Part shown: positions 7,626 to 9,000 of the stretch, piece by piece | Position numbering within the stretch: position 1 is the first letter of the stretch | Layout of the letters: each line of letters opens with the position of its first letter | Source: Deltaproteobacteria bacterium | GTDB taxonomy: Bacteria > Myxococcota > Myxococcia > Myxococcales > SZAS-1 | Assembly: GCA_018266075.1 (NCBI GenBank) | Contig: JAFEBB010000021.1 | Coordinates: forward strand, 1 to 64,000 | Reading direction: 5' to 3' | Length of the DNA: 64,000 bases | Program-made: the position numbers and the translations under genes | Notes under the pieces: generated by a model | Told to the model about the DNA's origin: nothing | What the model saw: only the letters and a program-made list of their open reading frames with translations | The model's database searches: none

Positions 7626-7785
7626 GTCCGCACCTCGCGTGGCGCGTTCGTGCGCCCCAGGACCCTGAAACGAACGGGCCGTCGAAAGGATCTAGGGCTT
7701 GGACCGCCCCGCTTGCCCGGCGGTTCCGGACTTGATTTCGGCCAATGGACGACTGGCCTAAGATCAGGGCGTCTGGAGGCTTTCC

Positions 7786-9000
7786 ATGCACGCGCTCGCG
7801 CTCCTCGTCCTGCTCGCCGCACCGAACGTCGAACCCGCCACGCCAGCGGTGACCGTCGAGAATGTGTCGGCCATCACCGCGCTGATCGCGCCGCCGGCCG
7901 ACGAGGTGCGCTACGCGTCGATCGGTTGGCGCCGCACGCTCTGGGAGGCGGCCAAGGAAGCGCAGAAGGCCGACAAGCCGATCCTGCTCTGGGCGATGAA
8001 CGGACATCCGCTCGGGTGCGTTTGAAACAACGGCATCATCACCAGACGGTCCGTCTGGAACGACAGCGCGCTGGTGGAGCTCTCCAAGGCCTTCGTCCCG
8101 GCCGCGGACGACATGACGCATTTGGAGACCTACGGCGCCGACGCCGACTTCTTCCTGCGCTTCTCCGAGGACGGCCACTACGGCCACGGCAAGGGTCCGT
8201 ACGGCACGCGCCAGGGGACGTACCTGGTCACGCCGAGCGGCAAGCTGCTCGCGAGCACCAACGAGCTGAATCCCGCACTGATCGCCGAGCTGATGAAGGA
8301 AGCGCTGGCCGACTACGCGAAGCTGCCGAAGGAGCAGCGGCTGCTGTCGGCGAAGGAGCTGAGGAACTGGGGCACGCCGCAGCGGAGCGACGACGGCCAG
8401 TATCCCGAAGGCGGCCTCGTGCTCCGCGAGTACTCCCGCGACCTGCCCGCCAAGGGCGAAGATCCCAGCGCGACCAGCCAGAACTGGAACATGGACTTCG
8501 CCTGGTTCACGCCGAGTGAAGCCAAGGCGCTGGTGCCCGCGCATCCCGAGCCGGGCAAGCGGGTGGCGTGGCCGCAGCCGCAAGCGCAGCGGCTGGTGCG
8601 CTTCCACTTCGTCGATTCGGTGAACGGGCTGCGCTACGGGCAGAAGCCGCTCTTCGAGGCGAGCGACGTGAAGAAGGCAGAGATCGCGTCGATCGTGGAG
8701 CGCGTCGACGGTGCGCGCGTGACGCTGCGCCTCGAGGGCCAGACGCGCGCCGAGAGCAACAAGCCGCGCAACCGCTGGGTGGAGACGCGCGTCGCCGGCC
8801 GCGCCGTCTGGGACAGCGCGCAGAAGCGCTTCACGTCGTTCGACCTCGTGGCCGTGGGCACGCGCTGGGGCGGAACGGGCGAGGGCCGGAGCTACGACCG
8901 CGCCGAAGAGAAGGCGCCCAAGCCGATTGGCTTCAGCTTCTCGCTCGCCAACGACACCGAGCGCGTCCCCCCGCTGTACGTGTACGGCTACGGGTGGTGA
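7786..9000 (+). CDS. Putative exported selenoprotein with Cys-x-Sec motif (TGA at 8023-8025 read as Sec)
   Basis: ATG at 7786 is preceded by GGAGG six bases upstream and encodes a signal peptide (MHALALLVLLAAP). The frame meets TGA at codon 80 and then continues without another stop for 324 codons to 9000, with the same codon bias. The residues around it read HPLGC-V-(TGA)-NNG, so the TGA is one residue after a Cys, a typical redox position. The preceding AQKADKPILLWAMNG looks like the strand before a thioredoxin-type active site. A stem-loop like a bacterial SECIS starts 16 bases after the TGA. Read through, the product has 404 residues. The segment after about residue 100 has no family I can name. 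The alternative is a nonsense-mutated gene or a sequence error. Confidence 0.72.
8042..8058 (+). promoter_or_regulatory. Candidate bacterial SECIS stem-loop
   Basis: CCAGAC (8042-8047) pairs perfectly with GTCTGG (8053-8058) around the loop GGTCC. The GGU at the loop start lies 22 bases after TGA. In E. coli fdhF the SelB-binding loop is GGUCU about 18 bases after UGA, so sequence and spacing are both close. Folding and SelB binding are inferred, not shown. Confidence 0.65.

Follow-up and report, generated by a model that had tools for sequence, protein, structure and literature searches.

We analyzed a 64,000-nucleotide stretch of DNA (the window; positions 1 to 64,000 of contig JAFEBB010000021.1, GenBank assembly GCA_018266075.1, a myxobacterial draft genome) and report on a gene at positions 7786-9000 that, judging from sequence comparison and structure prediction, very probably encodes an exported selenoprotein with selenocysteine (Sec) at residue 80 on a thioredoxin fold. 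Read from ATG 7786, the frame meets TGA at codon 80, continues through 324 sense codons and ends at a second TGA (8998-9000). This arrangement, in which an in-frame UGA is flanked by coding sequence on either side as in UGA-decoded selenoproteins, had been claimed in a sequence-only reading of the window; it is seen in the sequence and is conserved in relatives. The features of the locus are the following.

7786-9000, + strand: entire predicted selenoprotein gene, 404 residues with Sec as residue 80 and the true stop TGA at 8998-9000, from the family alignment.
7775-7779, + strand: Shine-Dalgarno-like GGAGG, 6 nucleotides (nt) upstream of ATG 7786, read from the sequence.
7786-7842 (end approximate), + strand: predicted N-terminal signal peptide (MHALALLVLLAAPNVEPA...), hydropathy peak 3.04.
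8023-8025, + strand: putative UGA codon for Sec (codon 80), with TGA shared at this codon by relatives.
8042-8058, + strand: Sec insertion sequence (SECIS)-like hairpin CCAGAC-GGUCC-GUCUGG, from bacterial SECIS geometry, rare Arg codons and a recoding test.
7894-8331, + strand: predicted thioredoxin-like domain (residues about 37-182), from the AlphaFold2 model and fold comparison.
8332-8997, + strand: predicted beta-rich C-terminal domain (residues 183-404), from AlphaFold2 on the domain alone.

Peptide patterns, one of which adjoined the site and which are biased towards conserved members and not towards TGA, were scanned against 84,980 species genomes and gave 72 loci; two further loci from the same phylum were added. 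TGA was present at codon 80 in 72 of the 72 loci that cover the site (L076, a tandem copy with Ser, was excluded), in records titled Planctomycetota, Armatimonadota, Verrucomicrobiota, Marinimicrobia, Latescibacterota and Chloroflexi. Profile searches, free of this pattern bias, yielded many further members. Sec or Cys is what homologs of a selenoprotein should have at such a position, and among 133 near-full-length dereplicated members the residue was Sec in 123, Ser in 7, and Asp, Pro and Cys (L196) in one each; short or partial matches had Sec 16 times, Ser once, Asp twice and Cys three times. Trp occurred at the site in no member. These counts cover the retrieved loci, with few rows uninspected, and non-Sec candidates were retrieved on purpose, so that their share is not underestimated by choice. 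The sequence-only reading had called for this alignment and had named homologs lacking Cys at the TGA position as evidence against Sec. Taken literally, this outcome was obtained, since Cys is mostly absent; in substance it was not, since the relatives carry TGA itself, which supports Sec more strongly than Cys would.

The family consensus around the site is G-H-P-L-G-C-T-U-N-N-G, of which the window protein has a local Cys-Val-Sec form. The earlier observation that Gly-Cys-Val precedes TGA is true in the window, but the upstream Cys is not universal: Cys78 (position -2) was found in 44 of 56 alignment rows, with Gln, Glu, Ser, His, Asn or others elsewhere and Cys nearby in some of these rows. 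Residues invariant in the 56 sequences include W48, P65, L68, W69, G73, P75, Sec80, N82, G83, R87, Q143 and G144. Rates of nonsynonymous substitution (dN) in ten close pairs were several-fold to twentyfold below synonymous rates (dS) downstream of TGA, and were also low upstream, suggesting strong purifying selection on the part that follows TGA. With TGA recurring at this codon in relatives and the protein conserved on either side of it, the open reading frame (ORF) at 7786-9000 is not explained by chance.

A different interpretation takes the TGA for a genuine stop or an error of sequencing, and the 308-codon ORF that begins at GTG 8074 for another gene, independent or decayed. Indeed, the mechanical ORF list gives 8074-9000 with a GTG start, and TGA is also the final stop of the same frame. 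Nevertheless, two genes or a pseudogene can be excluded for practical purposes because dN is far under dS past TGA, as it is before it, and because N82, G83 and R87 are invariant; conservation in the stretch of codons from TGA to 8074 ranks with the highest in the protein. In addition, relatives in many phyla keep TGA at this codon, and a split would sever the modeled thioredoxin fold between strand 1 and the active-site helix. On examination, the TAG that seemed to interrupt some Armatimonadota rows was their ordinary stop at the C-terminus.

In a quick FastTree phylogeny (root arbitrary, four non-Sec rows on long branches), the non-Sec forms were separate side branches among Sec forms and needed six changes, of which repeated loss of Sec would be the simpler reading. 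Two genomes, G233 (L131/L076) and G377 (L127), contain tandem or nearby pairs with Sec in one copy and Ser (G233) or Asp (G377) in the other, which appear to be duplications with Sec loss. One locus (L079) comes from a record titled Methanoregulaceae archaeon SJ84; its protein is almost identical to a Fimbriimonadaceae copy (L041) and recurs in an Armatimonadota sample (G234), and the record is probably a mislabelled or contaminated archaeal metagenome-assembled genome.

The assembly from which the window comes (7.84 Mb, 166 contigs, 96.6% complete) contains selA (558 bits), selB (300) and selD (385), each above cut-off and none with internal stops, as well as a tRNA-Sec (71.8 bits, above cut-off) that ARAGORN calls tRNA-SeC with anticodon TCA. 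The complete Sec machinery expected alongside a selenoprotein gene (SelA, SelB, SelD and tRNA-Sec) is present in this genome; a search for selA, selB, selC and selD had been proposed from the sequence alone, with their absence to count against Sec, and such absence was not observed. More broadly, selA was above cut-off in 44 of 46 carrier genomes. A strong Sec form occurred in about a fifth of 392 sampled Planctomycetota genomes, and selA was found in about 83 of the 86 genomes with this form versus 158 of the 306 without (Fisher p about 7e-17, approximate because the counts were tallied by eye, with 241 entries versus 238 reported above cut-off; species are not independent). Of the genomes seen with a non-Sec form only, G405 and G331 with Ser and G526 with Pro had no selA above cut-off, whereas G539 and G604 with Ser had it.

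A hairpin follows the UGA, where a bacterial SECIS element is expected. According to the published rule, the loop should lie 16-37 nt from UGA, have G in loop position 1 or 2 and have a minimum free energy of -7.5 or lower (PMC13188914). The window hairpin satisfies this rule: the gap from UGA is 16 nt to the stem and 22 nt to the apical loop, the stem has six pairs, the first loop base is G, and the folding energy of the 45 nt that follow UGA is -12.0 kcal/mol. Compared with synonymous recodings, the region was more stably folded across 73 members (mean z for energy -0.67 and for the stem +0.83; Wilcoxon test on non-independent rows, p about 1e-8), suggesting a modest, consistent excess across the family. 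A stem of at least 6 pairs with an acceptable loop was present in 71 of 73 members by a loose count, and synonymous recodings often have the same. Arg in the 5' arm was encoded by AGA or AGG in 26 of the 73 members, whereas these two codons make up 7.6% of the Arg codons elsewhere in those genes (p 3e-11, without correction for kinship among the non-independent rows); the window gene also has AGA there, despite 93% GC at third positions. We read this bias towards rare Arg codons as selection on the RNA.

These features bear on whether a tRNA other than tRNA-Sec, either a suppressor or a near-cognate one, instead inserts Cys, Trp or Ser at the UGA. Such readthrough would fit the rare members whose residue there is Ser, Asp, Pro or Cys and would be compatible with evidence that consists of DNA alone. 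The association of the family with selA, the genuine tRNA-Sec with anticodon TCA, the SECIS-like hairpin at the expected place and the lack of Trp at the site in any member point the other way, and we regard readthrough as very unlikely. With near certainty on these sequence data, the gene product would be a selenoprotein, and we infer actual insertion of Sec.

Several observations weigh against the interpretation of 7786-9000 as an exported redox selenoprotein. The evidence for Sec is at the DNA level throughout. The window hairpin alone is no better than chance compared with dinucleotide shuffles (z +0.19) and not significantly better than synonymous recodings (z -0.38); thus, the previously noted stem-loop with loop GGTCC 16-32 bases downstream has the right geometry without being significant by itself, and it is the geometry together with the family-wide excess that is consistent with a SECIS element just after UGA. 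Covariation is weak, as the RNAalifold consensus of the hairpin had 3 pairs only and zero compensatory pairs, and an Rfam scan of the hairpin region gave no real match. The stem occurs in at least two registers among subfamilies, and because its register differs between them, formal covariation is a poor test. Conserved neighbor genes were not found beyond close relatives, and none points to a substrate. One row in five lacks Cys78, so pairing of Sec with an internal Cys is not how the family works in general. Finally, the best identity of the window gene to aligned relatives is 44%, and the family is mostly lacking in the phylum of the window, with any match in 5 of 195 genomes (190 without).

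This sparse occurrence, together with the position of the window gene among mostly planctomycetal copies in the tree, might suggest that the gene, or the whole contig, entered the myxobacterial assembly as contamination from Planctomycetota. The composition of the window is uniform and close to that of the sel and tRNA-Sec stretches of the same assembly (tetranucleotide r 0.95-0.99, versus 0.80-0.94 for planctomycetal relatives), and horizontal transfer accounts equally well for the branching. We therefore consider contamination improbable and acquisition by horizontal transfer likely. The Sec reading stands either way.

With regard to location, the hydropathy peak and similar N-termini in most relatives bear out the signal peptide claimed from the sequence alone. 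The N-terminus was strongly hydrophobic in 45 of 56 alignment rows, including that of the window, with a lipobox-like motif in 8, and the window protein is probably exported. Two loci (L029 and L039) have a large ORF resembling a sigma-factor-type regulator that stops 2 bases 5' of the selenoprotein start, and similar ORFs lie near L043 and L054; some members may be part of a regulated operon.

An AlphaFold2 model of the window protein (predicted local distance difference test (pLDDT) 90.6, predicted template modeling score (pTM) 0.90) agrees with fold comparison on the thioredoxin-like setting that had been claimed. In the model, residues 37-182 form a thioredoxin fold, with the best match to 3f9u (Z 13.1; 2.5 Å, 111 residues) and further matches to ERp19 (1sen, Z 12.3), AGR3 (3ph9, Z 11.7) and DsbH (2ju5, Z 10.4). 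The thioredoxin superfamily is characterized by an active-site helix after strand 1 with the catalytic residue at the helix start. The model has this arrangement, with a strand at 66-71 and Sec80 directly ahead of helix 81-89, and places Sec80 at the position of the catalytic cysteine of thioredoxins. The classical CxxC, UxxC or CxxU motif is absent: the active site is U-N-N-G, in which an invariant Gly replaces the second Cys of CxxC (an equivalence judged from spacing). The C-terminal domain (183-404) modeled alone had pLDDT 90.1; compared with solved structures, its best match (Z 6.9) was to small outer-membrane barrels at chance level, with no clear relative. PDB sequence searches gave no match with the family profile, and chance matches plus a weak AGR3 match with two side-branch members.

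The Sec codon, the Sec machinery, coding past the codon, the export signal and the predicted fold are established computationally. They suggest a model in which the hairpin at 8042-8058 would direct SelB and Sec-tRNA(Sec) to decode UGA 8023-8025 as Sec. Once the protein is exported, residues 37-182 would form a thioredoxin fold with Sec80 replacing the catalytic cysteine at the start of the active-site helix, and the single selenol would act as a nucleophile towards a disulfide, peroxide or other oxidized substrate. A thiol from another molecule, or Cys78 in the proteins that have it, could then resolve the oxidized Sec (a selenenyl species), and the C-terminal beta domain might bind substrate, recruit a partner or position the protein. 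Given Sec, redox catalysis is likely, and an exported selenol-dependent reductase or peroxidase is the most likely function; the redox chemistry, resolving partner and substrate are what we infer.

It is also conceivable, if unlikely, that Sec is inserted in a protein that is no thiol-disulfide or peroxide enzyme: a soft-metal binder, a selenium store, or an AGR-like structural or chaperone-like protein with a thioredoxin fold. The missing CxxC, the presence of AGR2 and AGR3 among the closest folds, the barrel-like C-terminal domain, and side branches with Ser or Asp in place of Sec, suggesting a scaffold role that survives loss of redox chemistry, would all fit this view. On the other hand, Sec at the catalytic-cysteine position of thioredoxins is kept across phyla, and most uncharacterized selenoproteins are expected to be redox proteins (PMC13188914).

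The window protein had no match in Pfam and NCBIfam (June 2026 versions), and none of 56 scanned members matched above a curated cut-off, with two sub-threshold Thioredoxin_7 matches and one marginal RclB match. In a 2026 catalog of 119 prokaryotic selenoprotein families, no entry of Table 1 combines this motif and domain set, and the scans rule out those entries that have a Pfam or NCBIfam model (PMC13188914). Literature searches, with preprints, most subscription papers and unmodelled GenBank annotations outside their scope, found nothing on the GHPLGCTUNNG family.

The nearest known family is VPGUxxT (NF041382/NF041383, OS_HP5), thioredoxin-like (seleno)proteins whose motif differs from GHPLGCTUNNG and which are linked only via side branch L141 (E 5e-4); the cut-off of these models was not reached by the window protein (none at E up to 1) or the 56 members (none at E up to 0.01). 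Exported Thioredoxin_7/DsbH-like proteins (PF13899, PF03190) have a similar fold (DsbH 2ju5 and 3f9u), and sub-threshold Pfam matches occurred in 2 of the 56 members and in side branches. Compared with them, the window family has U-N-N-G for CxxC, an invariant Gln-Gly (143-144) before the next strand and an added C-terminal beta domain. ERp19/TXNDC12 and AGR2/AGR3, whose solved structures are some of the nearest in fold, are eukaryotic endoplasmic reticulum proteins that have no Sec and no beta domain, with 20-21% identity; AGR proteins also lack a full CxxC. Like the window family, Sec.1 (PF13192), Trx7/PDZ (NF041199) and SaoT (NF040730) have Sec near Cys in a thioredoxin-like domain (CxU, CxxU, UxxC), and their models were unmatched in the scans of the window protein and the 56 members.

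Glutathione peroxidase-like selenoproteins also have a single Sec at the N-terminus of a helix in a thioredoxin fold, and glutathione peroxidases have invariant Gln, Trp and Asn. Q143, W69 and N82 of the window family recall this set, although this is only a lead, as there is no sequence (Pfam) match and the chain order of Gln, Trp and Asn differs.

Side branches contained additional Sec proteins. Six of them (L147, L151, L152, L153, L154 and L156, from Planctomycetota and Verrucomicrobiota samples) have the motif DRPVDDxRCU-VFAGAAREAVFS (AGDPTGRCU in L152), 420-590 residues, mostly exported-looking N-termini and TGA in frame at the corresponding codon. L151, the only one scanned, matched no NCBIfam or Pfam family above cut-off, and the group is possibly another uncatalogued selenoprotein family. 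Another side branch (L149 and L150) has GHCLGYVU-GNGVVAREAVLN and its own C-terminal half, with TGA in the same column. In genomes of the order of the window, short Sec proteins were found (L141 in G109, L142 in G059 and L021 in G055), comprising lipoproteins with AGxxDGxCU and a 159-residue protein with GDPLGATU; L141, detected with the profile of the window family, is of the AGxxDGxCU lipoprotein type and is weakly related to the VPGUxxT family.

As far as could be tested, the GHPLGCTUNNG proteins are a bacterial thioredoxin-like selenoprotein family that is new as a family. Cys homologs far outnumber Sec forms in nearly all known selenoprotein families; in contrast, this family is almost without Cys forms, which makes it unusual. 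Selenoprotein discovery leans largely on Cys/TGA pairs, and the authors of deep-Sep noted that selenoproteins without Cys homologs may not be correctly identified (PMC12013277). The near lack of Cys forms would explain why the family is absent from the 119-family catalog, and gene callers would cut its genes at the internal TGA. The family also offers a natural test of Sec retention, as one in which Cys seems not to suffice. We see about an even chance that it belongs to a widespread superfamily of exported selenoproteins with a thioredoxin fold that the catalogs have missed. Sec would then be ancestral and hardly exchangeable with Cys, and where it was lost, Ser or Asp would mostly have taken its place, implying that the function needs selenium chemistry itself rather than just faster thiol chemistry. 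If so, subfamilies with differing C-terminal parts (GHPLGCTUNNG, DRPVDDxRCU, GHCLGYVUGNG and AGxxDGxCU) would represent an unexplored exported selenoproteome.
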